This document shows positions 12,199 through 26,242 of a DNA stretch of 40,577 nt, piece after piece. The stretch's first letter is position 1; every line of letters starts with the position of its first letter. The position numbers and the translations under genes were made by a program. The stretch is taken from IMG/VR virus record IMGVR_UViG_3300044628_001004, positions 1 to 40,577 of that record; one strand, written 5' to 3'. This stretch comes from a virus. The notes beneath the pieces were generated by a model that was given only the letters and a program-made list of their open reading frames with translations, ran no database searches and was not told the DNA's origin.

Positions 12199-12495
12199 AT
12201 GGCATTCGAAAGGACATTTCAGTTCCTGAGAAACACCCTAAACGCCCCTGTGAAGGTGCAGCTCAACGGGGTGCAGGCGGAGATTGGAGCCCTCATCAAT
12301 GTGGTGGGGGTGGGGCTGGGCCTGAGCCTGTCTACGGACGGGGAGGGCGTGACGACCCTGACGATGACGGGTGGGTACAGCCAGGTGGATGGCGGGGTGC
12401 CGGGGAGCATTTACACCGGGCCGATGAACATCGACGGGGGCTACTACAACTCTAACTTCGGCAGCACACCCACTTTCAGCGGAGGAACACCATAA
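12199..12495 (+). CDS. Small fibre-associated protein
   Basis: The ATG at 12199 is preferred over an upstream in-frame start because of the MAFERTFQFLRNT N-terminus. The 98-residue protein is beta-rich with Gly- and Thr-rich turns (GVTTLTMTGGYSQVDGGVPG). It ends with GGAGG that serves as ribosome site for the next gene, with TAATG overlap. Position just before a large fibre suggests a fibre or baseplate connector. Confidence 0.5.
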   Translation: MAFERTFQFLRNTLNAPVKVQLNGVQAEIGALINVVGVGLGLSLSTDGEGVTTLTMTGGYSQVDGGVPGSIYTGPMNIDGGYYNSNFGSTPTFSGGTP

Positions 12496-14642
12496 TGGCC
12501 GTACAGATTCAACTCCGGCGGGGCACCGCCTCCCAATGGACCAGTGCGAACCCGATCCTTGCCGAGGGCGAGATGGGCGTGGAATTGGACACGGGCAAGT
12601 GGAAGTTTGGCAACGGCACGGGCACTTGGTCCGTCTTGGCCTATGGGTCGGGGGCGGCGCTGCTGGATGGTGATAAGGGGGACATATCGGTCTCAAATAC
12701 CGGCACTACGTGGCTGATCGATGCGGGTGCGGTGACCTATGCGAAGATGCAGGCAGTCAGCACCACCTCGAAGGTGCTGGGCTCCAGCAGCACCTCCACC
12801 ACTATCCAGGAGCTGACCCTGGGAACTGGTCTAAGCCTGTCTGGGACTACGCTTACGGCTACGGGGGCGACGGTGGCTAACGGTGACTATGGGGACGTGA
12901 CGGTTTCGTCCACTGGCACGGTTTGGACTATCGATAATGGGGTTGTGACGTATGCCAAGATGCAAGTGGCCTCGACCACGTCGCGGCTGATTGGGGCTTC
13001 GTCGACGTCTACGACTCTCAGGGAACTGAGCCTGGGCACGGGCCTGAGCCTTTCCGGCACTACTCTCAGTGCCACGGGTGGGGTGACGGACGGCGATAAG
13101 GGGGATATAACGGTCTCGTCCAGTGGCGCGAGTTGGGTTATCGATTCCGGTGCAGTTACTTACGCAAAACTGCAGACGGCCTCGACGAATTCTAAGCTGC
13201 TCGGAACGTCTTCGACTTCGACGACGTTTGCTGAGTTGACGCTCGGCACGGGCCTGAGCTTGTCGGGAACGACCCTGACCGCCACTGGTGGCGTGACTGA
13301 TGGGGACAAAGGCGACATCACCGTATCGGGCACCGGATCGAGCTGGGTCATTGATAATCAAGCAGTTACCTACGCCAAGATCCAGAACGTCTCCGCTACG
13401 GATAAGCTCCTGGGCCGGTCCACGGCAGGGGCGGGCAGCGTGGAGGAGATCACCTGCACGGCTGCCGGCCGGGCGATCCTGGATGACGCTGATGCCTCCG
13501 CCCAGCGGACGACCCTAGGCCTCGGCACCCTTGCCACCCAGTCTGGTACGTTCTCAGGCACTAGCAGCGGCACCAACACGGGTGATCAGACGATTACCCT
13601 GACCAGCGACGTTACGGGGTCGGGCACGGGGTCATTCGCGACCACTATTGCGGCTGGGGTGGTCAGCACCTCCAAGCTGGGCGGGGACATCACGACAGCC
13701 GGCAAGGCCCTGCTGGACGATGCGGACGCTGCCGCCCAGCGCACCACCCTTGGGCTGGGGACGTTGGCTACGCAGTCGGGTACGTTTTCTGGTACATCTA
13801 GCGGAACCAACACCGGCGACCAAACCATCACCCTGACGGGGGATGTCACAGGTAGCGGTACGGGTAGCTTCGCCGCCACCATCGCCAATGATGCCGTGAC
13901 CAACGCCAAGCTGGCGAATATGACGGCCAGCACCATCAAGGCCCGCGTTACGGGCTCTACGGGTGATCCCGAGGATGCCACGCTTTCTCAGGTGCTCGAT
14001 TTAGTCGGGTCTGCCGCGCAGGGCGACATCCTCTACCGCGGTGCGTCTACGTGGACACGACTGGGCGCTGGCACCAGCGGTCAATACCTCAAGACACAGG
14101 GCACGGGTGCCAACCCAACTTGGGCTGCGGTGACCGCTTCTGGTGGCGGATCGACCAACGTCTGGATTCCGGCCTCCGCGTGGATCCCGCGCACCACCAC
14201 CGGCGCTGGCATCGACTCCCGCGAGCAGGCTACCAACCGGATCAACACGGACGAGCTGCTCTTCGACGCTGGCACGGATGAGTTCGCTCAGGCGATGATC
14301 GTGATGCCGAACAACTGGAACGCCGGGACCGTTACGGCCAAGTTCCATTGGACGGCCTCTACGGGTTCCGGTGATGTGGTGTGGGGCTTGCAGGGCCGGG
14401 CGTATGCCAACGACGATGCGTTGGATCAGGCGATGGGCACGGCGCAGACGGCCACCGACACCCTGACAGCCACGAACGACGTGGACATCTCCCCGGCCAC
14501 CTCCGCCATCACCCTTGGGGGAACGGCGGCCTCTGGCAATCCGGTCATCTTCCAAGTGTACCGGGACGCGGATGCGGCGGGCGACACCCTTGGTGCAGAC
14601 GCCCGTCTGCTGGGCGTTGAGATCTCATACACGGCAAGCTGA
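12495..14642 (+). CDS. Repeat-rich tail fibre / receptor-binding protein
   Basis: The 715-residue protein starts with the RRGTASQWTSANPILAEGE module and a VELDTGKWKFGNGTGTW segment, the virion-attachment domain common in phage fibres. A shaft follows of about four copies of a ~67-residue repeat (GDKGDITVSS...VTYAKLQ...LTLGTGLSLSG) and two copies of a repeat with LLDDADAAAQRTTLGLG and TNTGDQTITL. The C-terminal ~150 residues (from VWIPASAWIPRTT) form the probable receptor-binding head. It should be trimeric and exposed. A clear GGAGG site precedes the ATG. Confidence 0.85.
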   Translation: MAVQIQLRRGTASQWTSANPILAEGEMGVELDTGKWKFGNGTGTWSVLAYGSGAALLDGDKGDISVSNTGTTWLIDAGAVTYAKMQAVSTTSKVLGSSSTSTTIQELTLGTGLSLSGTTLTATGATVANGDYGDVTVSSTGTVWTIDNGVVTYAKMQVASTTSRLIGASSTSTTLRELSLGTGLSLSGTTLSATGGVTDGDKGDITVSSSGASWVIDSGAVTYAKLQTASTNSKLLGTSSTSTTFAELTLGTGLSLSGTTLTATGGVTDGDKGDITVSGTGSSWVIDNQAVTYAKIQNVSATDKLLGRSTAGAGSVEEITCTAAGRAILDDADASAQRTTLGLGTLATQSGTFSGTSSGTNTGDQTITLTSDVTGSGTGSFATTIAAGVVSTSKLGGDITTAGKALLDDADAAAQRTTLGLGTLATQSGTFSGTSSGTNTGDQTITLTGDVTGSGTGSFAATIANDAVTNAKLANMTASTIKARVTGSTGDPEDATLSQVLDLVGSAAQGDILYRGASTWTRLGAGTSGQYLKTQGTGANPTWAAVTASGGGSTNVWIPASAWIPRTTTGAGIDSREQATNRINTDELLFDAGTDEFAQAMIVMPNNWNAGTVTAKFHWTASTGSGDVVWGLQGRAYANDDALDQAMGTAQTATDTLTATNDVDISPATSAITLGGTAASGNPVIFQVYRDADAAGDTLGADARLLGVEISYTAS

Positions 14643-15394
14643 TGAGAGCTCGGCAGCGACATCTCAATAAGAGCCTGCGCGAGACGGCGTGCGCGTTTGA
14701 CTCGCGTTTTCTGAGCGGGTTTAGCGACGGAAACGAAGTCGATACGTGGACCGACTTGTCCGCAAATGGCCGTAATGCGACGCAAGCAACGTCAGCGAAT
14801 CGTCCGACCTACAAGACGGCAATTCAAGGCGGGAACCCGATTCTGCGTTTTGATGGGACGAATGACATCCTTCAGACATCGAGTTTTGCAAACGGGTCGC
14901 AATGTACGGCAATACTTGTGTTGAGTTCTGCGAGCTGGGCGTCTCCCACTAGCTATCGGCACTCATTTGTTCACGGATACGGAGCGACTAGCCCTACGAC
15001 GTCGGGTTCAGCATTTGCCGTTCAGGCAAACTCAGGATTTAACTATTGGGCCACGAACGATGTTTTTGCTTACGGGAATGGATATCAAAGCACTTCCCCA
15101 TATGCTACTGGTGCACCAGCTAGCGGAAGTGATTTCCGCATAATCTCAACTGTGTTTTGGACTTCGCTTTCGCGTATTTACGCGAATGGAGTTCGGTTAA
15201 GTACGAGGGCCGAGTCTACAGCAGCAGTTAATTCATTTACAAGGGATGCGGCGATTGGCGCGCCTTTGTCTGCTGGCGAGCGATGGAACGGAGATATTGC
15301 AGCCGTAATCTACTACACTTCAAACATAGGAGAGCCTATGCGTTCCCGTATTGAGCGATCCAACGCGCTAGCCTTTAAAATCGCCTGCTCTTAA
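14642..15394 (+). CDS. LamG/concanavalin-like fibre or adhesin domain protein
   Basis: The ATG overlaps the fibre stop by one base. The 250-residue protein has an N-terminal FDSRFLSGFSDGNEVDTWTDLS segment, then GNPILRFDGTNDILQT, SSFANGSQCTAILVL and IYANGVRLS, matching the strand pattern of LamG/concanavalin lectin-like domains that bind sugars. Its bases look more A/T-rich than those of the neighbouring fibre gene, suggesting separate acquisition. It probably sits at a fibre tip and contributes to host range. Confidence 0.65.
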   Translation: MRARQRHLNKSLRETACAFDSRFLSGFSDGNEVDTWTDLSANGRNATQATSANRPTYKTAIQGGNPILRFDGTNDILQTSSFANGSQCTAILVLSSASWASPTSYRHSFVHGYGATSPTTSGSAFAVQANSGFNYWATNDVFAYGNGYQSTSPYATGAPASGSDFRIISTVFWTSLSRIYANGVRLSTRAESTAAVNSFTRDAAIGAPLSAGERWNGDIAAVIYYTSNIGEPMRSRIERSNALAFKIACS

Positions 15395-15397
15395 TTT

Positions 15398-15796
15398 ATG
15401 CCCACGTATCTAACCCTTGACTGCGAACTGCGGGCGGAGACCGACCCGCAGACCATCGCCAACCTAGAGCGCAAGGGATGGGTGGTCACGGTGCCTCCGT
15501 CCTACGATCCCGCCACCGAGCAGCCTCCCGTCTGGGAAAACTGCGGCTGGGTGGTTAAGCCGCTGCCGCCTCCGCAGCCGTACCGCGTGTCTAAAGACAC
15601 CATCGTGTCGCGGGTGCTGGCTGCCGGAAAGCTCAACGACCTGATCACTCTGACGAACGGCCTGCCCGAGGATCAGGCGTATCTCTGGAACAACTTCGCT
15701 TGGTTTTGGGATACCAATCCGACCATCATCGCGATGTGCCAGCAACTCGGCCTTGACCCTGCGGTGATCCTCGCGCCCGACCCTTATCTAACCTAA
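15398..15796 (+). CDS. Hypothetical protein, possible fibre assembly or tip
   Basis: The 132-residue frame starts at an ATG after TTT, without Shine-Dalgarno. The N-terminal third has a Glu/Thr-rich strand region with a Cys, the middle is Pro-rich (KPLPPPQPYRVSKD), and the C-terminal helical part contains LPEDQAYLWNNFAWFWDTNP. This layout resembles phage fibre-assembly or attached domains. Its stop overlaps the next ATG. Confidence 0.5.
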   Translation: MPTYLTLDCELRAETDPQTIANLERKGWVVTVPPSYDPATEQPPVWENCGWVVKPLPPPQPYRVSKDTIVSRVLAAGKLNDLITLTNGLPEDQAYLWNNFAWFWDTNPTIIAMCQQLGLDPAVILAPDPYLT

Positions 15797-16182
15797 TGAA
15801 ACGCATACTCGCCTCATTCCTGCTAGCTGTTACCGCCTCCGCTCAGACGAGCGATTTGCTGACCGTCAATGTCGGACAACAGATCGCGTTCTCCGCCACG
15901 GCTGAAGGTACGCCTCCGCTTACTTGGCAATGGAGCAAGAACGGCACTCCAATTGCCGGAGCGACAAACGCCACGTTCACCATCGCCTCGGCGGCCACCA
16001 CCGACTCCGGCGCGTACCGCGCCAAGGCTGCCAACTCAGCGGGAAGCGCGGACTCCAATGTTGTCAACATTATCGTCGCGACCCCAACGATTGCGCCCAA
16101 AAATGTTGTGGTGAGCGTGCTAGTGACGACTCCCACGCAGGGGGCCAATTCGGGATCTCGCCCGCGTTCGCCCAAGGATTGA
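15796..16182 (+). CDS. Secreted Ig-like domain protein
   Basis: The 128-residue product has a signal peptide (MKRILASFLLAVTASAQ) then one immunoglobulin-like domain: VNVGQQIAFSATAEGTPPLT, WQWSKNGTPIAG, then ATFTIASAATTDSGAYRAKA and NSAGSADSNVVNIIV. The Trp, the D-S-G-A-Y tyrosine corner and the terminal N-V-V are classic. The TPPLTWQWSKNGTPIAG style is typical of Verrucomicrobia and related bacteria, which hints at the host. A signal peptide on a phage Ig protein is unusual; it may act on the host surface, or be capsid- or fibre-attached if the leader is not cleaved. Confidence 0.75.
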   Translation: MKRILASFLLAVTASAQTSDLLTVNVGQQIAFSATAEGTPPLTWQWSKNGTPIAGATNATFTIASAATTDSGAYRAKAANSAGSADSNVVNIIVATPTIAPKNVVVSVLVTTPTQGANSGSRPRSPKD

Positions 16183-16186
16183 CCTG

Positions 16187-16738
16187 ATGAATTCCGTCAT
16201 CGGCTCCCTCCCCCACCACCAATACGTGTGGGTGGACACTGCCGTGACGCATCGAGAGCCCCAAGGGTTCCTTCCCGCCGTCTGGTTCGGCCTGGTGTCG
16301 TTTCCTGGCCGGATGTGGGGCTGCAACGTTCTCTTTGAAAACGGAGCCATTTACCGCAATGTACCGCTTCACGCCCTGGCCTCCTCTCCAGAACCCGCCT
16401 GCGTCGATTGGACGGCCCAGGAAGCCCAGCAGTGGGACTGTTACGGCCACGCCTGGTCCGCCGTCCGGTACGACTACCTCCGCAGCCTCCGCTGCCAGGT
16501 CAAAGCCAAGGACAGCAGCCACCGGGGCAGCTACCTGTTCACTGCCGCCCCGATAGGAGACGGCTTCACCGAGGCCCCGGAGCAGGGTAAGGAGTTCGTC
16601 TTCGTCCAACTGGAGAACGGCCGGTACAGCGTGCAGCCGACCGACCGCATCATTTTCGAGGACCGTTCCTTCACCCGGCACAACTGGGAATGGCCTACGG
16701 GATTCAAGCGCCAGACCGAGATCTATTCCTGCGAATAA
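16187..16738 (+). CDS. Hypothetical protein
   Basis: The 183-residue frame starts at ATG four bases after the Ig-gene stop. The protein is rich in aromatic residues (VWVDTAVTHREP, then WFGLVSFPGRMWGCNVLFEN) with several Cys/Trp and a conserved-looking PLHALASSPEP segment. It looks like a compact beta domain often encoded beside phage fibre genes. No catalytic motif recognised. Confidence 0.55.
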   Translation: MNSVIGSLPHHQYVWVDTAVTHREPQGFLPAVWFGLVSFPGRMWGCNVLFENGAIYRNVPLHALASSPEPACVDWTAQEAQQWDCYGHAWSAVRYDYLRSLRCQVKAKDSSHRGSYLFTAAPIGDGFTEAPEQGKEFVFVQLENGRYSVQPTDRIIFEDRSFTRHNWEWPTGFKRQTEIYSCE

Positions 16739-16739
16739 T

Positions 16740-16919
16740 ATGCCCACGAAATCCAAGGTCAACGAAGCCGGGGTTTACACCAAGCCGGGCCTGCGAAAGC
16801 AGCTATTCGAGCGCATCAAGGCTGGCGGCAAGGGCGGGCGCCCAGGGCAATGGAGCGCCCGTAAGGCGCAGTTCCTCGCTCGGATGTACAAGTCTGAAGG
16901 CGGAGGGTACAAATCGTGA
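16740..16919 (+). CDS. Small basic DUF5872-like protein
   Basis: A 59-residue frame starts at an ATG after TAA-T with no ribosome site. It carries the segment GGKGGRPGQWSARKAQFLARMY, followed by a GGGY terminus, which I recognise as the DUF5872-type motif found in phages and large DNA viruses (K-G-G-x-P-G-x-W-S-A-R-K-A-Q). The strong positive charge suggests nucleic acid binding or packing within the virion. Its stop overlaps the next start. Confidence 0.6.
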   Translation: MPTKSKVNEAGVYTKPGLRKQLFERIKAGGKGGRPGQWSARKAQFLARMYKSEGGGYKS

Positions 16920-17149
16920 AGCCCACCCAGCAGTCCCTGCGCGACTGGACGAACCAGCAATGGCGCACCAATACGGGCAAGCCCTCGCTCAAGGGTGGTG
17001 GAAGGTATCTGCCTGATGCAGCCTGGCGGTCTCTCACCGGAGCCGAGAAGGCAGCCACGAACAAGGCCAAGCGGCAGGCCACCCGCGCCGGCAAGCAGTT
17101 CGCCAAGCAGCCGGCCAAGATCGCCGCGAAAACGGCCCGCTATCGATGA
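16916..17149 (+). CDS. Small basic conserved phage protein
   Basis: The GTG in a GTGA overlap gives 77 residues. The sequence shows SLRDWTNQQWRT, GGGRYLPDAAWRSL, AEKAATNKAKRQAT and a KQFAKQPAKIAAKTARYR end, matching a family of short Lys/Arg-rich proteins in podoviruses encoded next to the previous motif family. Likely virion or nucleoid-associated; function unknown. Confidence 0.55.
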   Translation: MKPTQQSLRDWTNQQWRTNTGKPSLKGGGRYLPDAAWRSLTGAEKAATNKAKRQATRAGKQFAKQPAKIAAKTARYR

Positions 17150-17328
17150 AAGACTGGGTCGATGCCGACTTCCGCCTGCCCACCACCCACGACTTGCCCG
17201 TGGAGGTGATCCTGCGTTCCGGCTCGCAGGATGTTTGGCACTCGATCTCGATGGACTGGCGGGAGGTCGCCCGCTGGCGCAGAAGCAATCAACCCAAGCA
17301 ACGCAATGGCCTTCGCCAACGCACATAA
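17146..17328 (+). CDS. Short hypothetical protein
   Basis: The ATG overlaps the previous stop (ATGA) and gives 60 residues: a beta-strand pattern (LPVEVILRSGSQDVWHSISM) followed by an Arg-rich tail. It overlaps the next gene by 23 bases. The overlap start is its main support. Confidence 0.45.
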   Translation: MKDWVDADFRLPTTHDLPVEVILRSGSQDVWHSISMDWREVARWRRSNQPKQRNGLRQRT

Positions 17329-17545
17329 CATCGAGGACAGCGGCTACACGTTCCGGCTGGGATGCCTGTCCGTAAACGTGAACGGTAAGCGCCTCCCGGC
17401 GCCGATGGAGGGGTTCGCAGTGCATTTGCTCCCGGATCTCCGGCTGAAGGTCGCCTGGTACAAGTCGGTGCGCTGGATCTGGTCAGTCGAGCTACAGGGC
17501 ACGTTCCTGTGCTGGCGCGGTTTCCTCAGCCTCTTCAAACAATGA
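17306..17545 (+). CDS. Short hypothetical protein
   Basis: The ATG at 17306 gives 79 residues with a beta-rich middle (YTFRLGCLSVNVNGKRLP) and aromatic C-terminal region (WYKSVRWIWSVELQGTFLCW). The stop overlaps the next ATG. An upstream extension exists in the same frame but would overlap the preceding gene more. Confidence 0.45.
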   Translation: MAFANAHNIEDSGYTFRLGCLSVNVNGKRLPAPMEGFAVHLLPDLRLKVAWYKSVRWIWSVELQGTFLCWRGFLSLFKQ

Positions 17546-17796
17546 TCACCTATCGCGGCGAAAAGTTCAGCGGCTACAACAAGCCCAAGCGCACCCCAGG
17601 TGCCAAAAAGAAGTCCGCCGTCCTCGCCAAGAAGGGCACCAAGGTAGCCCTCGTGCGGTTCGGCGACCCGACGATGTCCATCAAGAAGGATAAACCGGCT
17701 AGGAAGAAAAGCTACTGCGCCCGCTCTGAAGGCCAGGGCAACACGGGCAACATCTTCAGCGCAAACTACTGGAGCAGAAAAAAATGGGAGTGCTAA
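17542..17796 (+). CDS. Small Lys-rich conserved phage protein
   Basis: The ATG at 17542 (ATGA overlap) gives 84 residues. It includes KFSGYNKPKRTPGAKKKSAV, a VALVRFGDP strand and a C-terminal KKSYCARSEGQG...ANYWSRKKWEC. This arrangement (strand R-F-G, then K-x-x-x-x-R, then YW-x-x-K-x-W) is a familiar short-phage-protein family of unknown role. The 3' end overlaps the endonuclease gene by 13 bases. Confidence 0.6.
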   Translation: MITYRGEKFSGYNKPKRTPGAKKKSAVLAKKGTKVALVRFGDPTMSIKKDKPARKKSYCARSEGQGNTGNIFSANYWSRKKWEC

Positions 17797-18290
17797 GCTC
17801 AGTTCCAGACCGGGCGGAAGCCACATACACCTGCTCGGATTGTAGCAGGGTGCTATCGGCTGAACAGTATTACTGGCACAAGAAAGGCCATCGCCATTCA
17901 CGGGCGTGTAAAGCGTGCTATCAACTAAAACGCCGTCCATATAAAATCGCCTATATGGCTGGAGTAGGTAAGATAAAACAACGGGAGCGATATGATCCTG
18001 AGAAGCGTTCCCAAAGCATCGTAAAAAGCTACGGGATCTCGTTGGAGCAGTATGATCACCTGCTGGCTGCTCAGAATGGTGGATGCGCCATCTGCGGATC
18101 CAAAGAAGCCAAAACCAAACGTAACGGGCGATTCTGCTTGGATCACAATCACCACACGGGTGAGGTCCGAGGATTACTGTGCGCCCCGTGCAATCGCGGT
18201 GTTGGCTTGCTGGGAGATGACCCGGAGCGCCTCAAAAAAGCCTCCGACTACCTTTTGACGCCGCCGAGCCGAAAGGCTTGGAGCTGTTAG
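17784..18290 (+). CDS. Endonuclease VII-type HNH/zinc-ribbon nuclease
   Basis: The 168-residue product has an N-terminal zinc ribbon (YTCSDCSRVL and CKACY) and a C-terminal endonuclease VII domain: GGCAICGSKEA, CLDHNHHTGEVRGLLC, APCNRGVGLL and GDDPERLKKASDYL. The DHNH-x-T-G-x-x-R-G-x-L-C core and Cys pairs are diagnostic. Such enzymes either resolve branched DNA or act as homing nucleases. With RusA split, it could be the working resolvase. It ends the + strand fibre block; its A/T-rich bases differ from the neighbours, suggesting mobility. Confidence 0.85.
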   Translation: MGVLSSVPDRAEATYTCSDCSRVLSAEQYYWHKKGHRHSRACKACYQLKRRPYKIAYMAGVGKIKQRERYDPEKRSQSIVKSYGISLEQYDHLLAAQNGGCAICGSKEAKTKRNGRFCLDHNHHTGEVRGLLCAPCNRGVGLLGDDPERLKKASDYLLTPPSRKAWSC

Positions 18291-18292
18291 AA

Positions 18293-18331
18293 ACAGGGCC
18301 GTTCGCTTGGTTTGCCGCTATGCGGCCCTGT
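18293..18331. terminator. Terminator-like hairpin between convergent genes
   Basis: A perfect nine-pair stem (ACAGGGCCG at 18293-18301 with CGGCCCTGT at 18323-18331) encloses a 21-base loop. It lies just after the endonuclease stop and 26 bases beyond the stop of the - strand HTH gene. On the - strand TTTCT follows; on the + strand no T-run does. It most likely ends the - strand operon and may act both ways. Confidence 0.55.
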
Positions 18332-18356
18332 CCCCCAGATCTCGGGTCACGCGCAA

Positions 18357-18587
18357 CTACTGCGCTGTAGGGCGTTCCGAGTCAAGCATCTTGTCCAGCA
18401 TCGCCTGGATGCGGGCAAGGCGGGCCAAGGCGGCCTCCTGCATCAGGATGTGCGGCGCCGGATTGAATTCGTTAGGCTTCTCCCAGTACTGGTAGCAGCG
18501 GCGGCTGAGGGATAGGGCCTGCGCGGTCTCAGACTGAGAAAAGCCGAGCTTCAAGCGGGCTGCGCGGAGTTGTTGAGCAAAGGTCAT
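18357..18587 (-). CDS. Cro/CI-type HTH regulator
   Basis: The ATG at 18587 overlaps the methyltransferase stop (ATGA) and gives 76 residues. An xre-type HTH is clear: FAQQLRAARLKLGFSQSETA followed by QALSLSRRCYQYWEK. The C-terminal helix (ALARLARIQAMLDKML) may allow dimerisation. It is last in a - strand operon whose start lies at the first short-repeat array, so autoregulation through that array is a natural guess. Confidence 0.75.
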   Translation of the reverse strand: MTFAQQLRAARLKLGFSQSETAQALSLSRRCYQYWEKPNEFNPAPHILMQEAALARLARIQAMLDKMLDSERPTAQ

Positions 18588-19183
18588 AGGGTTCCCCATT
18601 GTTGAGCCATAGCGGTTGCGATGCCGGAGTAAGTCTCGCTGCGGATCTTCCAGCGATCCGCGCTCGGTCCTAGCCGATTCTGGCCCGAATCCGTCTGGTT
18701 CGCCCACCGGGGCTTACCATCCACCATCCGGGGCGAGATAATGGCTGTAGGACGAAGCAATGGCAGTTCCTTGAGCCACAGGCAGGTTGCCTTGCTGGCA
18801 TCGTGCCCAAACTGCCACGGCTGGATCGTCTGGTCCGGCTTGCGGATGCGGGTCGAAATGCACCCGACCGGATTCTCAATTGCCACCCGTGGAATCGGGC
18901 AGGATAAAAGCGTGCGGACGAAATCGAGTGCCGCCTCCGTCTTGGCCTGGCGCCCCTCCACCCGCTTGTTCCAGTGTAACCCGCTGCTGCACAAGTACGT
19001 GCAAGGCGGATGCGCTACCATCAGATCCCAGCCCTGCCCCAGTAACGGGACAACGTCGCCCTGGATATGGTACGCAGGATCTGCGTCGCAGGGCAACAGG
19101 TCGCAGGACCAAGCATCGTGACCGGCAGCGCGGAAGGCGTCCCGCACCCTGCCGGAGTATTCGCAGGCAACTAGGATTTTCAC
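18584..19183 (-). CDS. DNA methyltransferase-like protein (C5-MTase fold)
   Basis: The GTG at 19183 gives 199 residues. It opens with a Rossmann-type strand (KILVACEYSGRVRDAFRAAG), then HDAWSCDLLP, WDLMVAHPPCTYLC with the catalytic-style HPPC at 58-61, and IPRVAIENPVGCIS, corresponding to the ENV motif of cytosine methyltransferases but reading ENP. The C-terminus contains RKPDQTIQPWQFGH and ATCLWLKELP. This is a widespread phage family usually labelled cytosine methyltransferase. A specificity domain is not evident and activity is uncertain. The repeat array ends 14 bases upstream of the start. Confidence 0.7.
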   Translation of the reverse strand: MKILVACEYSGRVRDAFRAAGHDAWSCDLLPCDADPAYHIQGDVVPLLGQGWDLMVAHPPCTYLCSSGLHWNKRVEGRQAKTEAALDFVRTLLSCPIPRVAIENPVGCISTRIRKPDQTIQPWQFGHDASKATCLWLKELPLLRPTAIISPRMVDGKPRWANQTDSGQNRLGPSADRWKIRSETYSGIATAMAQQWGTL

Positions 19184-19197
19184 AGGTCAAAAATTTT

Positions 19198-19323
19198 GGA
19201 GTAAAATCGGCTGGGGTAAATCAAAAGCGCAAAAACTGCGCGGGTAGAAGTTCAACTACTGAAATCCCCTGGGGTAAAATGCCCCGGGTAAAATGGCCTG
19301 GGGTAAATCGGACGGGGTAAAAT
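19198..19323 (-). repeat. Short-repeat array 1, unit GGGGTAAA(A)T with 5-base spacers
   Basis: On the + strand, clear units are at 19198-19207, 19213-19221, 19271-19280, 19286-19294, 19300-19308 and 19314-19323, each separated by five unrelated bases where adjacent. Degenerate units fill the gap at 19227-19236, 19242-19250 and 19256-19265 in the same rhythm. On the - strand the unit reads ATTTTACCCC. The array stops 14 bases before the methyltransferase start codon, so it is its 5' leader or promoter region. Mixed 9- and 10-base units break any constant reading frame, arguing against coding. Confidence 0.85.
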
Positions 19324-19455
19324 CAGCCAAGGCGATTGCGTGCGTTTAAACGGGCGATCCCGTGCGGGCAGGGTCAAGGGCCGGGCTGGGCCCGGAAAGC
19401 CTTGGAAAACGCAAGGAATGGCCCCCAGGCGAAGGCCCAAGGGCTAAGGGTTGGG
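19324..19455. other. Gene-free stretch with hairpin
   Basis: Between array 1 and the next stop codon there is no credible gene. A CCGGGC/GCCCGG hairpin with a three-base loop lies around 19382-19396 and may help end the transcript of the two small - strand genes. A partial repeat-like TTGGGTTAAGA sits at 19451-19461 at the end of the next gene. Confidence 0.35.
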
Positions 19456-19680
19456 TTAAGAATGACCTAGCGCAGCAAATGCTTCGTCATCCGTAAGGAT
19501 TCGGTCCTCGCTTAGGTCCAGGTAGGCGTGCCGCCCTTGTTTCGGGTTGAAACAGTAAAGCAGACGGCGCCCCGTGCGGGCGGTAAATGGCAATTCCATC
19601 CCCCCGTGCGCGGGAACCCAGGTGTCGCTTTTGAGCGAGACCGCGAACGAATAAGAGGCGGAAACGGCGGGCGTGCTCAC
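19456..19680 (-). CDS. Small conserved phage protein
   Basis: The GTG at 19680 overlaps the preceding stop (GTGA) and gives 74 residues. It contains TWVPAHGGMELPFTARTGRR and LLYCFNPKQGRHAYLDL, a pattern I recall from many short phage proteins without known role, followed by an acidic C-terminal helix (LTDDEAFAALG). It is second in a two-gene unit headed by array 2. Confidence 0.6.
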   Translation of the reverse strand: MSTPAVSASYSFAVSLKSDTWVPAHGGMELPFTARTGRRLLYCFNPKQGRHAYLDLSEDRILTDDEAFAALGHS

Positions 19681-19877
19681 AATTCAGCCCCCGTAAGTGC
19701 GTAGTGGAAAGCCTCGACCCTGGAGCCGAAAAACTCGGATTCCAGATCCCACCCCTCGGAAACGTAATAGTTGCCGGACTCTTCGTCGAACGTAATGCAG
19801 GCGAGCAGGTCGCCCTTAGGCGTGCGTACTTCCCATTGCGTGTCGTCCGTCTGGTGCAGGATGTTTTCGGGATGCAT
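19677..19877 (-). CDS. Small acidic hypothetical protein
   Basis: The ATG at 19877 gives 66 residues, beta-rich and acidic (TQWEVRTPKGDLLACITFDE then GNYYVSEGWDLESEF). Array 2 lies directly upstream, ending 15 bases before this start, the same arrangement as for the methyltransferase gene. A longer upstream frame reads into the array and is not used. Unknown function. Confidence 0.55.
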   Translation of the reverse strand: MHPENILHQTDDTQWEVRTPKGDLLACITFDEESGNYYVSEGWDLESEFFGSRVEAFHYALTGAEL

Positions 19878-19892
19878 TGTTATGGTTTGTTT

Positions 19893-20004
19893 TGGGTTAA
19901 ATCCGCCGGGGTAAAATCCGGCGGGGTAAATTGAACGGGGCAAAATCGGTTGGGGTAAATGGCCAGGGGCAAAATGAGCCAGGGTAAATCCCTGCGGGTC
20001 AAAT
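19893..20004 (-). repeat. Short-repeat array 2, strictly alternating 10- and 9-base units
   Basis: Eight units occur on the + strand at 19893-19902, 19908-19917, 19923-19931, 19937-19946, 19952-19960, 19966-19975, 19981-19989 and 19995-20004. After the first, lengths alternate 10, 9, 10, 9, 10, 9, 10 and every spacer is exactly five bases with variable content. The consensus is GGGG(T/C)AAA(A)T. The double period is 29 bases. On the - strand this is ATTTTACCCC/ATTTACCCC. The array ends 15 bases before a - strand start codon. Confidence 0.9.
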
Positions 20005-20136
20005 GAGCCAGCGGCAGCGGCCGCAGGTAGGGCGCAAGGGTTGGCGGGTTGGCTCCGGCGGGTTTCGGGGTGGCGAATAAGGGCGCAAGTAAGGGCGCCC
20101 CGTCCAAGGGCGCCCCGTAGGGTTGCGGGTGGCGGG
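20005..20136. other. Gene-free G-rich stretch with short repeats
   Basis: This interval upstream of array 2 contains two copies of AAGGGCGCCCCGT around 20090-20118, each with a GGCGCC palindrome, and several GGCGGGTT words. I see no gene or clear promoter. Confidence 0.4.
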
Positions 20137-20892
20137 TTAGCTTAGGGCAACGGCGCTTGCGGCCCCGCTGCGGGATCCGTGCGGGTTAATCCAGATCGAT
20201 GGCAGCGTGCGGCCGGTAGGCGGCCGGAACGGCTGGCCAGCCATCCGAAAGCGGCCGTCACAAAGCTTGCACTTTTCGCACGTCAACCCCTTGGCGTCAC
20301 TAAGGCATTCAACCGTCCCGGCGGGCTGAATTGGGGAAACGTGAAATGAGCGAAACCCGGCGCGGGTTGCGGCTTTGAAGGAGTCCGCCGTTTCCGTGCT
20401 TGCCATAAAGTAGCGGGCATAAGCGGCCGCTTGCGGGTTGCTTTGCCAATCGTGAAAGTACCCCGTCCATCCGTCCGAAACGGCGGCAATGGCGGACACG
20501 ATAGGCAAGGGTAACAACGTAGGGTTGCCATAAGCGCCAAACCTCACTTTGCGGCCGGAGAATAAGGTCGCGAAATCCGCCGGGGTTGCGTCGGGGTAAA
20601 TGCCGCGATGATAGCCACGCCATATGGCAAGCGGCGCCTGTCCTACGTTAACGTAACAGCCCTTGCCGCTGGCAAACGGGCAACCGCGGCAAACGGTCGC
20701 GGCATCGAGGCCACTCTGGACGGCGGCAACGGGGTTTGTTTCGGTCAGTAGGAACCAGACTTGCACCATATTGCCCGTCTTGCGGTTGGCGGTCTCGAAC
20801 GTGGCAATGGCTACGTAGTCGCGGCCGGAGACGTTGCCCCGGTGCAGCACGGCGCCGGTGGCGTTTTCCAGGGTGGGTTTTTCGGTTGTCAT
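20137..20892 (-). CDS. Conserved phage protein with Cys clusters (DUF7227-like)
   Basis: The 251-residue protein starts at ATG. A mid-N-terminal segment (NRKTGNMVQVWFL then LDAATVCRGCPFASGKGCYV) has a C-x2-C-P and later Cys, followed by NVGQAPLAIWRGYHRGIYP. Near the C-terminus is CEKCKLCDG, a C-x2-C-x2-C cluster. Four to six Cys like this suggest zinc or iron-sulphur binding. I associate the CYVNVGQ-x-P-x-A-x-W-R pattern with a widespread phage family of unknown function. It may be read together with the tiny membrane-protein gene upstream. Confidence 0.65.
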   Translation of the reverse strand: MTTEKPTLENATGAVLHRGNVSGRDYVAIATFETANRKTGNMVQVWFLLTETNPVAAVQSGLDAATVCRGCPFASGKGCYVNVGQAPLAIWRGYHRGIYPDATPADFATLFSGRKVRFGAYGNPTLLPLPIVSAIAAVSDGWTGYFHDWQSNPQAAAYARYFMASTETADSFKAATRAGFRSFHVSPIQPAGTVECLSDAKGLTCEKCKLCDGRFRMAGQPFRPPTGRTLPSIWINPHGSRSGAASAVALS

Positions 20893-20910
20893 TTTATCGG
20901 GTTTTGAGGG

Positions 20911-21006
20911 TTAAGCTGCGTAAGCAAAGCCGAGGGCAAGCGCCACTAGTAGCAGCGCGCACAAAACATAGTCAGTAAACGTAGCGGGTTCGCGTTCGTA
21001 TTTCAT
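20911..21006 (-). CDS. Tiny single-pass membrane protein
   Basis: A 31-residue frame from the ATG at 21006 has GGAG right before the start and encodes a charged N-terminus (MKYEREPATF) and one transmembrane helix (YVLCALLLVALALGFAYAA). It lies 18 bases upstream of the Cys-cluster gene. Small size limits confidence, but the ribosome site and hydropathy support it. The 142 bases to the divergent + gene presumably hold promoters; none is convincing. Confidence 0.45.
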   Translation of the reverse strand: MKYEREPATFTDYVLCALLLVALALGFAYAA

Positions 21007-21148
21007 CTCCGCCACTCTTCCGCCCCTCCGTCCCTTAGACAAGCGCAACCCTTGCGCCACCCTTAGTCAGTAGACAGGCTTATGCCAGGCCCCCGCCCCA
21101 TAAGTTTTCCCTCGACATAGTCCCCCTCCCCCTTTGCAACTCTCCCCA

Positions 21149-22060
21149 ATGGACACAGTTTCCCCCACCGTAGAAACCCACCCGCAAGGCAAGGGCGGCC
21201 GCCCGTCCCACCGGAACAAGGCTGGCCAGCGGGCTTGGCACAAGCGCCTAGTGGCGGCCGGCCGCCTTGAGGAAGCGGCCGAGTGGGCGAAGGCCTGCAA
21301 CCTTCTGCCCCCGCCCGTGCCGCCGGCCGCCCCCGCCCTACGGGCGACCCCGGCCGCCGCCCACCCCGCCCCCGCCCCGGCCGCCCCGGCGCCCACCCCG
21401 GCCGGCCCTACCAGCCCAGCGGCCGCCCCGACAGGGGGGGAGGGGGTCAACCAGGCTGGGGGGCTGGAGAATGGGCATACTTCTACCGCCTGTGGTCAAA
21501 TTTTGCAGTGCGAGTCACCTGCTGCTGGGCCTGCCGTAGCCGCTGAGGCTCATTTAAGCCTCCCTGCCGATTCGCTGGCGCTCATCGTTGCCTCCCCTAA
21601 GGGGGAGGTGGAGGGGGTTGAGGGAGGTCGTCAAGCCGGAAGTAGTAGCAGTGCTGATGCTGAGGGGGTTAAGGTAGAAGAATGTTTGGGTGGGTGGCCG
21701 GCGGAGGTGGAGGGGGTGGTGGGGATTCGGTGCAGGAACAAGTGGTATGTGGAGGTGCAGGTGGGGGAGAAGAAATGGGCGAAGGCGGAGATTGGGGGGC
21801 GGGTGCTGACGTATGCGGAGAGGAGGATGGTGCGCCGGGTGTGGGTGAGTGCGGATGGGAGGGATGCGGAGTATGAGTTCGTGGATCGGCCCGTGGAGGT
21901 AAGACCCGTGGAGCCCGAGCCCGTAATTGAGCCTGTAGCTGCTCTTCCGGCGGCTGTGGTGGAGGAGCCTGCGCCGGCGGCGGAACCCGACTACAACCCG
22001 TCTGCGACAGACTTTATGGAGCAGGCCAGGAACGCGGCGTATGCCGCCTATAGCCGATGA
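21149..22060 (+). CDS. Pro/Ala-rich two-domain protein upstream of small-terminase-like gene
   Basis: The ATG at 21149 gives 303 residues. The N-terminus is basic and helical (GKGGRPSHRNKAGQRAWHKR), followed by ~60 residues of Pro/Ala linker, then a folded section at about 190-250 (VGIRCRNKWYVEVQVGEKKW, RVLTYAERRMVRRVWV) and an acidic, Pro-rich C-terminus. Base use shifts strongly within the gene, from C-rich to G-rich codons. The basic head could bind DNA, perhaps in packaging, given the next gene. The family is not recognised. Confidence 0.5.
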   Translation: MDTVSPTVETHPQGKGGRPSHRNKAGQRAWHKRLVAAGRLEEAAEWAKACNLLPPPVPPAAPALRATPAAAHPAPAPAAPAPTPAGPTSPAAAPTGGEGVNQAGGLENGHTSTACGQILQCESPAAGPAVAAEAHLSLPADSLALIVASPKGEVEGVEGGRQAGSSSSADAEGVKVEECLGGWPAEVEGVVGIRCRNKWYVEVQVGEKKWAKAEIGGRVLTYAERRMVRRVWVSADGRDAEYEFVDRPVEVRPVEPEPVIEPVAALPAAVVEEPAPAAEPDYNPSATDFMEQARNAAYAAYSR

Positions 22061-22602
22061 GCCTAAAGAAAAACCCGCACAGTCCCAAGAAGAGCTACCA
22101 GCCGCAGAAGCTGATCAATGCAGTCGCTCAGGCGACGATTGAGACCAAGGGGATCGGCATCGCCAAACACGGCCTGCTTAAAGAGGTTAGCCGGGACGAC
22201 CGGCTGATGCTGCAGCGGGTGGTCGGGATGAGCGTCGAGGAGTTTAACCAGCGGCTGATGGGCAAGCTCGACTGCTTGGCTGACAAGATCCTCGACCGAA
22301 TGCTGGATACGGTGGATGAAACCCCGCTTAACAACCTGGGGTTCAACCTGTCCGTGGCGATGGACAAGCGTCAGCGGATGGCCGGGGCGGCTGCGGTGGG
22401 CAACGCCAACGTCAATATCCAGGTCAACAACTACGGTGGGATGAGCAAGGAGGAGATCCTTGCCAAGCTGACGGGCAAATTCGCCACCGCAGACGTCACC
22501 CAGCCTGCTCCCGTGGAGGCCGAGGTGGTCCCGCCACCTGAGCCTAAGCCCACCCGCCAGCAGATGATGGCGGATGCGCTGAAGGGGGATGACGCAGCCT
22601 AA
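22057..22602 (+). CDS. Possible small terminase subunit or DNA-binding protein
   Basis: The ATG overlaps the previous stop (ATGA) and gives 181 residues. The protein has a basic N-terminus, a long helical core (LDCLADKILDRMLDTVDETP, LNNLGFNLSVAMDKRQRM), then VNIQVNNYGGMSKEEILAKL and a Pro-rich tail. The helical core with a conserved N-L-G-F and D-K-R-Q pattern recalls phage HTH/small-terminase-associated proteins. It is separated from terL by an opposite-strand block, so the call is tentative. Its stop overlaps the convergent HTH stop. Confidence 0.45.
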   Translation: MSLKKNPHSPKKSYQPQKLINAVAQATIETKGIGIAKHGLLKEVSRDDRLMLQRVVGMSVEEFNQRLMGKLDCLADKILDRMLDTVDETPLNNLGFNLSVAMDKRQRMAGAAAVGNANVNIQVNNYGGMSKEEILAKLTGKFATADVTQPAPVEAEVVPPPEPKPTRQQMMADALKGDDAA

Positions 22603-22829
22603 GCCTTGGACCGGCTTAGGTAGTAGTGGACCAGATCCCGCTTGATGCCGAGGAGGTCCGAGATCCGCTGCTGAGTCATCCCGTTTTTGTAGAGCTGCTG
22701 CACCCTGACTCTTAGGTGCCCCGCCTCGGCCCGAGACCGCCGGCCATAGGTGGAGGCCAGCTTGTCCCGGATTTTACGCTCCGTCTCCTTGATCTCGTAG
22801 CGGGTGGGGATGCCGATGATGGGACTCAT
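22599..22829 (-). CDS. Helix-turn-helix protein
   Basis: The ATG at 22829 overlaps the methyltransferase stop (ATGA) and gives 76 residues. The C-terminal half is a clear HTH (RVQQLYKNGMTQQRISDLLG followed by IKRDLVHYYLSR), similar to resolvase or sigma-like helices. The N-terminus is charged helix. Probably a regulator or a DNA-recognition subunit; it is last in a - strand trio. Confidence 0.65.
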   Translation of the reverse strand: MSPIIGIPTRYEIKETERKIRDKLASTYGRRSRAEAGHLRVRVQQLYKNGMTQQRISDLLGIKRDLVHYYLSRSKA

Positions 22830-23413
22830 ACCTTCATCAGCCAGAACTGGTGCTGGGTAGAGGGCAGGATGACCGCCTCCCGACGGAAGATGGTGTAGAA
22901 CGCATCAATCGCCAGCCTAGGGTTGTCCAGCGGGTTGGCCTCCTGCCGGGGCCTTTCCGTCCAAGTGTAGTCGTCGAAGGCCAAGTACCCACCCGGCTCC
23001 AGGATTTGCCACGCCAGCACCGCATCGGTCAGCACATCCTTGGCGAGATGGCTGCCATCGATGTAGATGAAGTCGAAGCGGCTGTAATCCTTGCGCTGTA
23101 CATACTCAGCAAGTTTGTAAACCGACTCGTCCGCATCGACCAAAAGCGGGCCGCCCTGCCCGTAGTTGGTGTTGCGGACAAATCGTTCCCAGACGGCCTG
23201 CATTTTAATGCCAAGATGTTCTACGCTGCCTTTCCACGTATCGATGCCGACGATATAATCGAACGCCATATGGTCGAGCAGCCAGCAGGTGGCCTGGCCT
23301 TCATAGCAGCCGATTTCGATGGCCTTCTTAAACTGCGCCTTCCTTGGCAGTAGGTTGTTGACGAAATTGGTCTCCGCCGTCTGCTGGAACCAGTCGTTGG
23401 TGAACTCCCTCAC
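22826..23413 (-). CDS. Class I SAM-dependent methyltransferase
   Basis: The GTG at 23413 (GTGA overlap) gives 195 residues. Motif I is visible (AIEIGCYEGQATCWLLDHM), with DYIVGIDTWKGS carrying the acidic ribose-binding residue, FDFIYIDGSHLAKDV and LEPGGYLAFDDYTW. This is the layout of the Methyltransf_24-type family acting on sugars or small molecules. Next to a glycosyltransferase gene, modification of a surface glycan or of phage glycoprotein is plausible. No DNA-methylation motif is seen. Confidence 0.8.
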   Translation of the reverse strand: MREFTNDWFQQTAETNFVNNLLPRKAQFKKAIEIGCYEGQATCWLLDHMAFDYIVGIDTWKGSVEHLGIKMQAVWERFVRNTNYGQGGPLLVDADESVYKLAEYVQRKDYSRFDFIYIDGSHLAKDVLTDAVLAWQILEPGGYLAFDDYTWTERPRQEANPLDNPRLAIDAFYTIFRREAVILPSTQHQFWLMKV

Positions 23414-24276
23414 TTGGCTGCCTCCTTCTGCGCCAGCATTTCAGCCTTAATGGCCTTGATTTCGTCCTTCCGCCACGGCTCAGACAGCATTTCTAGGAGC
23501 TGCGGGGTTTCGATGGGCAGGGCCACCTTGCCCGAGTGGGCCATAATGAGTTTTGTATCGACGTGGATATCGATGCCGGCCTTTTGCACGAGGTCGCAGA
23601 ACCAGTAGTCCTCCGAGACGAACACGTTGGGCTCATCGTACTTGAGGTCCACCAGTCGTTTGATGCGCTCGACCATAATGTCATTGTTTTTGGCCGGCTC
23701 ACCGAGTGTCTCACGGATAGTTTCCAGCCGGCGTTCCGGCGTGCCCGGCCCCTGCAGCCCCATCGGGAAGAACTCGTGCAGCGGATGCGGCGGGTGATTG
23801 GGGTCCACCAAGATCCCCCGGCGCCAGGAGTTCAGCTCCGCGATGCGCTTAAACACGCTCATCTTCATCTTGGAAAAGCCTAGGGCCGACCGGGACACCT
23901 TTTGCAGCCCTTCCTCGTTGGCGTGCTCACCGGGAATCAGGTGCATATGCCAGTGCGTCTTGAGCGAGCGGGTGGCGTAGATAGCGCAAACGATGTCGAC
24001 GTCGTGCTTGAGCAGCCGCAGCAACGCTCCGGCCGTGACGTCCTCGCCGTGCTGCTCAGCCAACACGTCCTTGTCCCACCAGACTAGCTCGTCGAACTTG
24101 TGCTCAAAGGCGTAGGCCACGAGTTCGTTCCGCGCCTGCTGCACTGCCGGCCCCTCCAAGAGGCACCAGTCCAGTTTGACGTCAGGAATCTTGGCGGCAG
24201 CCAGTTGCAGGCTGGTCTTGAAGTAGCTGCGGGGAATGTCGCCCTTTAGCGGCGTGGCAATGAGGATGCGTTTCAT
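23410..24276 (-). CDS. Glycosyltransferase (GT-A-like)
   Basis: I choose the ATG at 24276 (MKRILIATPLKGDIP) because it matches the usual family start; an upstream ATG at 24333 would add 19 residues. The 288-residue protein has AVQQARNELVAYAFEH, DELVWWDKDV with a D-x-D-like metal site, DIVCAIYATRS and later SEDYWFCDLVQKAG, the acceptor-side E-D motif of many GT-A enzymes. The donor sugar is unknown. With the methyltransferase it forms a small surface- or DNA-modification unit. Confidence 0.7.
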   Translation of the reverse strand: MKRILIATPLKGDIPRSYFKTSLQLAAAKIPDVKLDWCLLEGPAVQQARNELVAYAFEHKFDELVWWDKDVLAEQHGEDVTAGALLRLLKHDVDIVCAIYATRSLKTHWHMHLIPGEHANEEGLQKVSRSALGFSKMKMSVFKRIAELNSWRRGILVDPNHPPHPLHEFFPMGLQGPGTPERRLETIRETLGEPAKNNDIMVERIKRLVDLKYDEPNVFVSEDYWFCDLVQKAGIDIHVDTKLIMAHSGKVALPIETPQLLEMLSEPWRKDEIKAIKAEMLAQKEAAK

Positions 24277-24411: not shown

Positions 24412-24615
24412 ATGGAAATGGTAACCAAACGCTGCGTGGATGAGTGGCTCATTGAGCCCGACATCGAAGGAGCGCGGGAATACGCCCGTTTGTCCATCAT
24501 CGCCGAGCCCGCCGGCCTAAACGTGGACGGCCAAGGCATTATCCCGTGGGAACAACTCCTTTCCGCCCGTCAGTCTTACGCCGTAAACCTTAAAAAGCGC
24601 AATGCCACTCGGTGA
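24412..24615 (+). CDS. Small protein preceding terL
   Basis: The ATG at 24412 gives 67 residues: KRCVDEWLIEPDIEGAREYA, then a short beta segment (LNVDGQGIIPWEQLL) and a basic end. It overlaps the terL start by 14 bases, consistent with translational coupling. It is shorter than usual small terminases. Unknown role in packaging is likely from position only. Confidence 0.5.
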   Translation: MEMVTKRCVDEWLIEPDIEGAREYARLSIIAEPAGLNVDGQGIIPWEQLLSARQSYAVNLKKRNATR

Positions 24616-26242
24616 CGTACACTTTGCGGATGATTTTACGCCCACTTTTGGCATCCCGTGGGTGCCGATCCCGGAGCGGGACGACTTGGCCGCCTGGCCG
24701 CAGGACAAGCTGATCGAATACCTCGCTTTCCGGGAGGAGCGAAACAAACAGGCGTTGGATAACCCCGTGGGTGCCGGTTGGACCCTGCCGATGTGGCAGG
24801 AAGTGATGGCAAACTGGGGCAAGTACCAGAACCACATCATCTTAGGTGGCAATCGATCGTCAAAATCGATTTTTGCCAGCCGGTTATGCGTGTGGGCTTG
24901 CGGCAGCATCCCCTCTGCCGAGGTCCGGGCCTATCACGTCAACGAAGACCGGAGCATCGAGGATCAACAGCGGATGATCTATGATGCCCTGCCCATCGGC
25001 ATCCGCCGGCTGCCCACCAAGAAGGGCCTAAACCACTCCGTCCAGTACACTCAGAAGAACGGGTTTACCGACAACATCTGCATTCTGCCCCCGCTGTCCG
25101 GGGCCGTGCGCGGTGGGTCGATCAAGTTCAGTAACTACCGTGCTTACGCCAACGACGCTCAGATTGCCGAGGGCTACAAGGCCCACCTGATTTGGTGCGA
25201 CGAAGAATGCCCGCAGAAGATGTGGGAGACGCTGCAATACCGAACGAGCGATTTCCACGGACGCATCCTGCTGACGTTTACCACCCTAACGGGCTGGACG
25301 CCGCTGGTGCAGGACATCCTAGGCAAGACGAAGACCCTGAAAAAGCGGTTTGCCCCGCTGGTGGGCAAAGAACTGCCCATTATGCAGGAGTCGCTGTCCC
25401 GACCCAACACGGCAATCTACTACTTCTGGACGGAGGACAACGCCTTCCTTGATACGTCCGACTTCACCAAAAAGCTGCTGGGCCGCCCCCGCGATGAAGT
25501 GCTGGCCCGGGCGTATGGCATCCCCACCAAGTCCATCACTTCAGTGTTTCCAGGATTCAACAAGGAGGTTAACGTCATCCCATATGAAACCCTACCTTTC
25601 GTCCGTGACCCAAGCTATCCGGTCACTCGGTATATGGCTTTGGACCCTGCTGGATCGAAGAACTGGTTTATGCTCTGGGTCGCCATCGACGCCGCCGGCA
25701 CCTGGTGGGTCTACCGCGAGTGGCCCGACTATGACGACTGGGCACTGCCCGGCAGCGGAGCCGAAGGCAAACCCGGTCCCGCGCAGAAAGGCTCCAAGAA
25801 AGGCATCCGTGACTACGTCGAGCTTATCGAGCAATGTGAGGACGGTGAAACGATTCAAGAAAGGCTCATTGACCCGCGCCTCGGTGCGGCGGAAAGGCAG
25901 TCCGCCGAAGGGGCAACCACCATCATCTCCGAGCTGGACGACGTGGGAATGACGTTCATCCCCGCCCCCGGCGTGGAGATTGAGAACGGCCTGCAGCTCA
26001 TTAATGGCCTCCTGTCCTACGATGAGAGTAAGCCCATTACCGCCCTTAACGGCCCCCGGCTCTACATCTCTGACCGCTGCCAGAACCTGATTTACTCAAT
26101 GGGTGAGTATACAGCCAAGGGCGGCAAGGAAGAGGCGACCAAAGATCCAGTGGATTGCCTGCGTTATCTGCTCGTCGCCAACTGCGAGTTTATGGACCCG
26201 CAGGCAATGCAGCAAACCGACAACCGGACGTGGAGCTATTAA
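24602..26242 (+). CDS. terL: Terminase large subunit
   Basis: The 546-residue protein contains the ATPase Walker A as GGNRSSKS (about 82-89), Walker B as HLIWCDEE (about 194-201), and a coupling-type ILLTFTTLTGW segment. The nuclease part begins MALDPAGSKNWFML with its first acidic residue, followed by a longer C-terminal RNase-H-like domain including RLIDPRLG and a D-P-V-D-C-L-R-Y near the end. It drives packaging into the prohead through the portal encoded next. Family length and motif order are normal for phages that package by this motor. Confidence 0.93.
   Translation: MPLGDVHFADDFTPTFGIPWVPIPERDDLAAWPQDKLIEYLAFREERNKQALDNPVGAGWTLPMWQEVMANWGKYQNHIILGGNRSSKSIFASRLCVWACGSIPSAEVRAYHVNEDRSIEDQQRMIYDALPIGIRRLPTKKGLNHSVQYTQKNGFTDNICILPPLSGAVRGGSIKFSNYRAYANDAQIAEGYKAHLIWCDEECPQKMWETLQYRTSDFHGRILLTFTTLTGWTPLVQDILGKTKTLKKRFAPLVGKELPIMQESLSRPNTAIYYFWTEDNAFLDTSDFTKKLLGRPRDEVLARAYGIPTKSITSVFPGFNKEVNVIPYETLPFVRDPSYPVTRYMALDPAGSKNWFMLWVAIDAAGTWWVYREWPDYDDWALPGSGAEGKPGPAQKGSKKGIRDYVELIEQCEDGETIQERLIDPRLGAAERQSAEGATTIISELDDVGMTFIPAPGVEIENGLQLINGLLSYDESKPITALNGPRLYISDRCQNLIYSMGEYTAKGGKEEATKDPVDCLRYLLVANCEFMDPQAMQQTDNRTWSY

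Follow-up and report, generated by a model that had tools for sequence, protein, structure and literature searches.

What does a dense row of short direct repeats do in an intergenic gap of a phage genome, and what might read it? This question is raised by a virus record of 40,577 nt (hereafter the window, i.e., the whole stretch of DNA that was analyzed), which carries two such arrays. An initial annotation of this DNA had described one of them (array 2) as eight alternating 10- and 9-base units, and had put forward protein-binding iterons, a partition or replication site, or an RNA leader. Judging from sequence comparisons, we favor, with slightly better than even confidence, head-to-tail operator arrays that are bound by a sequence-specific protein controlling the gene block; among the readings proposed initially, protein-binding sites appear the likeliest, while a folded RNA leader is not supported.

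Results

Structure of array 2

Array 2 (19894-20004) is read on the minus strand, where its eight head-to-tail units have the gene-strand consensus ATTT(T)RCCCC; in plus-strand form, they are 9 or 10 nt long and follow GGGGYAAA(A)T. The units are GGGTTAAAT (unit 1; start 19894), GGGGTAAAAT (unit 2; 19908), GGGGTAAAT (units 3 and 5; 19923 and 19952), GGGGCAAAAT (units 4 and 6; 19937 and 19966), AGGGTAAAT (unit 7; 19981), and CGGGTCAAAT (unit 8; 19995). Their last four bases (AAAT) are 100% identical and the first five bases 77% identical, with an imperfect G block in three of the eight units. All spacers are 5 nt long (CCGCC, CCGGC, TGAAC, CGGTT, GGCCA, GAGCC, and CCCTG), and GAGCC follows the last unit; unit-by-unit mapping confirmed the number of units and the constant spacing that had been described. 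The T residues at the unit ends lie at 19902, 19917, 19931, 19946, 19960, 19975, 19989, and 20004, i.e., in steps of 15, 14, 15, 14, 15, 14, and 15 nt, a strict alternation with a 29-base double period. Short GC-rich repeats are also present beside this array.

The spacers are fixed in length and free in sequence, as had been claimed: their pairwise identity is 0.31, compared to 0.33 expected from spacer composition, and adjacent spacers are not more alike than distant ones. This is relevant to slippage, which could have produced neutral or selfish tandem repeats in a GC-rich phage intergenic region. The short GC-rich repeats that adjoin array 2 are in line with such an origin; at no lag does the similarity among spacers exceed chance, which argues against it, and with the comparative evidence given below we consider it the least probable of the explanations weighed here.

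The longest chain of similar 8-mers at 14/15-nt steps has eight members (beginning at 19894), versus at most four when the whole window was shuffled 200 times with dinucleotides preserved. The unit itself is not over-represented: GGGGYAAAW, with at most one mismatch, occurs 38 times in the whole window, compared to 33 expected. When the window was scanned with a weight matrix, the best 15 matches were all on the minus strand and 13 of them fell inside the two arrays; the matrix was built from the array units themselves, and only the scarcity of matches elsewhere is informative. The units share a single orientation relative to transcription, and few strong matches lie outside the arrays. Array 2 is thus confirmed as real, and is special in clustering, strand, and spacing, not in genome-wide unit abundance.

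A coding repeat, which the initial annotation had ruled out, is rejected by the 14/15-nt steps and by frame-shifting indels between relatives, and the array lies outside any conserved protein gene. A pentapeptide-repeat coding array was likewise rejected, as it needs a constant 15-nt in-frame period, compared to the 14/15 steps of array 2. For CRISPR, repeats of at least 21 nt and spacers of about 30 nt are expected, versus units of 9-10 nt and 5-nt spacers here. A tRNA search at the array found none.

Array 1 and gene context

Array 1 (19198-19323, minus strand) consists of nine units of the array 2 consensus, three of them degenerate, with unit lengths of 10, 9, 10, 9, 10, 10, 9, 9, and 10 nt and 5 nt in every spacer. 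The alternation is broken in this array and the 5-base gaps are kept; therefore, the constant across both arrays of the window is the gap, not the alternation. Array 1 holds an inverted repeat, GCGCA-N5-TGCGC (19227-19241), which is kept down to G010, a contig of a deeper branch. The degenerate middle of the array (19227-19265; CAGTAG..CTTMTACC-GCGCA-N5-TGCGC) is conserved to the same depth, exceeding the conservation of the neighboring units.

Each array lies directly upstream of a minus-strand gene, within one leftward gene block. In the order of transcription, this block includes a phrog_2554 gene of no assigned function (20137-20892), the upstream neighbor of array 2; array 2; a small gene of 66 aa (19677-19877), with no family in Pfam or PHROGs; another small gene of this operon, encoding 74 aa (19456-19680) and conserved in contig G012; array 1; a DNA methyltransferase gene (phrog_757; 18584-19183); and a gene for a 76-aa XRE/lambda-repressor-like helix-turn-helix (HTH) protein (18357-18587), all on the minus strand. 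Array 2 ends 16 nt from the start codon at 19877, in agreement with the suggested leader location ahead of minus-strand genes. At array 2, a search of the gene strand gave no sigma-70-like promoter. Elsewhere, the window encodes a Mtd_N-type tail fiber (12495-14642), endonuclease VII (17784-18290), terminase (phrog_2; 24602-26242), and major head protein (phrog_1328; 29932-30933). No Shine-Dalgarno sequence precedes the gene starts of the block (e.g., 20892 and 19877 in the window; 5928, 6932, and 7362 in the relative L021); ATG is often preceded by AACCC or AAACC and then an A-rich run, a feature that might point to the host group.

Near relatives

When 2.9 million viral contigs were scanned for the pattern, 40 stretches were returned, most of them of the pentapeptide-repeat type with an invariable period of 15 nt; two contigs, L021 and L030, have the alternating form, and a third relative, L042, was reached via the phrog_2554 gene. 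Both arrays are present in all three, and the strict 10/9 alternation also occurs in L030. The search with fixed spacing that had been suggested for other phages thus recovered relatives that keep the spacing rule, not random units.

Units are conserved and spacers are free between these genomes, as well as within arrays. For array 1 (three genomes), 72 of 77 unit positions are invariant, compared to 27 of 40 spacer positions; for array 2 (four genomes), the numbers are 61 of 76 and 26 of 40. The excess in units is significant for the pooled data (Fisher test, p = 0.0003); for array 2 alone, p = 0.11. Units that evolve slower than spacers favor sites bound by a protein, and argue against slippage. 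The gene behind array 1 varies: the phrog_757 methyltransferase is replaced in L021, where a C5-cytosine-methyltransferase-like gene follows the array, and is absent from L030, where the HTH gene follows directly.

Among 50,697 named phages, megablast of positions 14000-24000 found no close record. The best named-phage tblastn match to the head protein was C75C1 (43% identical), which has no such array within the 30 kb read. The strict alternating pattern was absent from the bacterial and archaeal genomes scanned. A terminase search of genome contigs gave one match (74%), the 7-kb contig L320 (JAURGE010000073.1) of an alphaproteobacterial MAG; it is probably a stray phage contig in its MAG, and is the sole host hint found.

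Deeper branches of the family

Two deeper branches, with terminases 79-83% identical, have arrays at matching syntenic spots, with other unit wording and, again, about 5 free spacer bases and a single orientation. In G010, the contig of L044 with a terminase identity of 83%, the array 2 place is taken by GATTTGAYCC units that recur every 15 nt, and a shorter array at the array 1 place touches the ATG of the HTH gene. In G001 (contig of L213), G003 (L072), G018 (L294), and L211, 11-14 AATTYGAYC units at 13- or 12-nt steps occupy the array 2 place (terminase identity 79% for G001, G003, and G018); in these pooled arrays, the 8 core columns carry about 12 bits, versus about 1 bit in the 4 spacer columns counted. 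G001 and G003 also have a shorter array between the methyltransferase and a convergent gene. No array was found in the stretches scanned of G015 and G016, both of which have a distant HTH homolog.

The core plus about 5 bases gives the observed periods (8+5, 9+5, and 10+5). Because other branches have periods of 15 or 13, the 10/9 alternation is local and not a defining rule: the alternation and the 29-base double period that the initial annotation emphasized hold in array 2 and L030, and do not hold in array 1 or the other branches. What persists in the family is a unit with a short fixed gap, its orientation, and its place; the arrays hold their syntenic place in the array-bearing members even though the downstream gene changes. 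A common helical phasing was rejected, as 13, 14.5, and 15 bp share no phase.

Several more distant arrays were seen. In L051, L054, L056, L057, L059, and L060, arrays of 16/17-bp GTGGATCCGYGGYC units, each with a BamHI-type GGATCC, lie downstream of the phrog_2554 gene, directly past a terminator-like hairpin, at the same relative place. L337 (IMGVR_UViG_3300043449_000698) has a homogeneous 14-bp array of AATTTAAYCSGCC (924-1130), then a shorter second one (1205-1290) before a promoter-like stretch; it has no detectable terminase relationship and may be an independent case of a like kind. L002 (10358-10619) has an array of CCCCGGAAATC with steps of 15, 16, and 17 nt; thus, it is not a simple coding repeat.

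The slippage explanation can draw on L051-L060, whose different and more homogeneous 16/17-bp GTGGATCCGYGG arrays stand at the matching spot. Against it, the spacing is kept as unit length changes, and the two sites have been retained in a family whose terminase identity is 79%.

Surroundings of the arrays and the RNA level

In L211, L213, and G018, the last unit provides TTGACC, followed after 17 nt by GATAAT or GATAAG, with the palindrome CCAGTAGATCAGCTACTGG between the two, immediately past the last unit. One such promoter-like site alone is not significant (0.4 expected in the region), and it recurs in three contigs. L211 has an intrinsic-terminator-like hairpin ahead of the array, and L213 and G018 have palindromes TGTAACG-N5-CGTTACA beside it. 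These surroundings of the 13-bp-lineage arrays support a control region.

They also bear on a reading at the RNA level, in which the array is transcribed and its repeated AUUUUACCCC words are read by a protein or the ribosome in a 5' leader. Units on one strand only, spacing without helical phase (which suits a single strand), and arrays that stop no more than 16 nt short of a start codon (in the window, L030, and L044) are all consistent with such a leader. However, if the promoter-like element past the array in L211, L213, and G018 is used, the array would not be transcribed, and the short array that G001 and G003 have between two converging genes is not the leader of any gene. The folding that had been suggested as a check gave no conserved fold: z-scores were -1.5 and -2.3, two-sided changes occurred in one of 56 predicted pairs among four relatives, and no Rfam family matched. 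We consider an RNA-level leader quite improbable.

Candidate binder

In AlphaFold2 prediction, the 76-aa HTH protein has a lambda-repressor-like fold (mean pLDDT 85.5), with a single HTH domain and one long C-terminal helix. Foldseek matched it to P22 c2, 434 Cro, restriction-modification C-proteins, Aca1, and Aca2 with probabilities near 1, although none of the E-values was below 0.001; the families HTH_3, RstR, and phage repressors were matched below threshold, and the best solved-structure match by sequence is Aca2, a weak one (E = 0.012). If this protein is Aca-like, the small operon genes at 19456-19877 would be candidate anti-defense genes.

Homologs of the HTH gene lie directly behind array 1 in two lineages (L030 and L044/G010), where the array touches or nearly touches the ATG; in the window, the methyltransferase gene intervenes. 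No homolog was found in the array-bearing G001, G003, and G018, of which G001 is apparently complete, its ends overlapping by 28 nt; because array-bearing relatives are without this gene, the XRE protein is only a candidate binder. The reverse combination, a distant homolog with no array detected in the stretches scanned, occurs in G015 and G016 and also speaks against this protein. XRE proteins usually bind palindromes as dimers, and units that are asymmetric direct repeats, not a palindromic operator, count against it as well. For the window lineage, we put this protein forward tentatively, with confidence well short of even. A binder search by gene presence and absence named none; the simple ORF caller was too noisy.

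Discussion

Under the operator reading that we favor, a sequence-specific DNA-binding protein would sit on each asymmetric unit of 8-10 bp, the short constant gap would set the bound molecules side by side in a row, and this row would control transcription into the genes behind, i.e., the two small genes for array 2, and the methyltransferase and HTH genes for array 1. In the window lineage, the most likely binder would be the phage's own 76-aa XRE-type protein, which would then be autoregulated via array 1. We infer a protein ligand and its action on transcription from conserved units with free spacers, from one-way orientation and a kept syntenic place, and from the promoter-like TTGACC-17-GATAAT/GATAAG of three contigs; its possible identity is suggested by the HTH gene directly behind array 1 in L030 and L044. 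Furthermore, one unit is common to both arrays of the window, as expected for a single trans-acting factor, and its wording drifts between lineages; a unit drifting jointly at two sites points to a trans-acting factor that co-evolves with its sites. Against the operator reading are the short array between convergent genes (G001 and G003), which has no obvious promoter-operator role, and the lack of a gene-strand sigma-70-like promoter at array 2.

The main rival is that the arrays are replication iterons, which would bind the initiator of phage replication (as an origin and a second in-cis site, the arrangement of satellite phage P4) and merely lie between genes. Direct, asymmetric repeats in one orientation at two sites, a place that is kept while downstream genes change, and the placement of the short array of G001 and G003 between converging genes are compatible with this explanation. 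So is an AT-rich 60-nt stretch (ranking second in the window) that begins at 19176, beside array 1. Conversely, no initiator gene was recognized beside the arrays, the window contains no DnaA box, there is no GC-skew switch at the arrays, and some family members (G015 and G016) have no array detected in the stretches scanned. Typical iterons are spaced in helical phase, unlike the periods of 13, 14.5, and 15 found here. We consider replication iterons unlikely.

Returning to the operator reading, a more general form of it may apply family-wide, and we suggest it more hesitantly than the XRE candidate: a protein arranged head-to-tail on units of 8, 9, or 10 bp might take its spacing from a fixed gap of about 5 bp and not from the turn of the helix; from one lineage to another, the unit sequence and possibly the binder would be exchanged, whereas place and geometry would be kept. 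Should the small XRE protein prove to be the binder, it would exemplify how a single-domain HTH protein reads direct repeats that are asymmetric and not in helical register; should the arrays serve in replication, they would locate the origin of a phage family known here from metagenomes alone. In both cases, they can help to find the regulator and to recognize members of the family.

Comparison with known systems

The initial annotation knew of no described family of this form, and a literature search for dense fixed-gap repeat arrays in phages, mostly outside subscription journals, found no match either. In iterons (lambda O, plasmid Rep, and P4 type I), one protein occupies a series of short direct repeats; the arrays resemble them in their short direct repeats of one orientation and differ in that no initiator was found nearby and the spacing is out of helical phase. 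The closest working analogue is the stoperators of cluster A mycobacteriophages (L5 and TipsytheTRex), asymmetric 13-mers that lie in promoters and between genes, follow the direction of transcription, and are read by an HTH repressor (PMC9283540). The asymmetric, transcription-oriented sites in intergenic gaps are alike; however, stoperators are more than 20 single sites dispersed over the genome, whereas dense fixed-gap units are confined here to two arrays, and only two of the 15 best sites lie outside them. The stoperator repressor is monomeric, with an HTH and a second DNA-binding domain, whereas the candidate here has a single HTH domain, and another binder is possible. The SAS/ESAS elements of cluster K mycobacteriophages are also asymmetric repeats in one orientation, just upstream of start codons (PMC3203893); SAS occurs singly at the starts of many genes and includes a ribosome-binding core (AGGAG), compared to eight to nine copies at two sites in the arrays, the units of which lack AGGAG on both strands. 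Autoregulated XRE/Aca-type operons (Aca2, C-proteins, and RstR) share the fold of the candidate and, in two lineages, a gene directly behind the putative operator; Aca2 binds inverted repeats as a dimer (PMC8434428), whereas the array sites are direct repeats. By these analogies, the element would work like an operator or iteron array, and would be best placed with the known kind of direct-repeat protein-binding arrays rather than in any one of the named systems compared.
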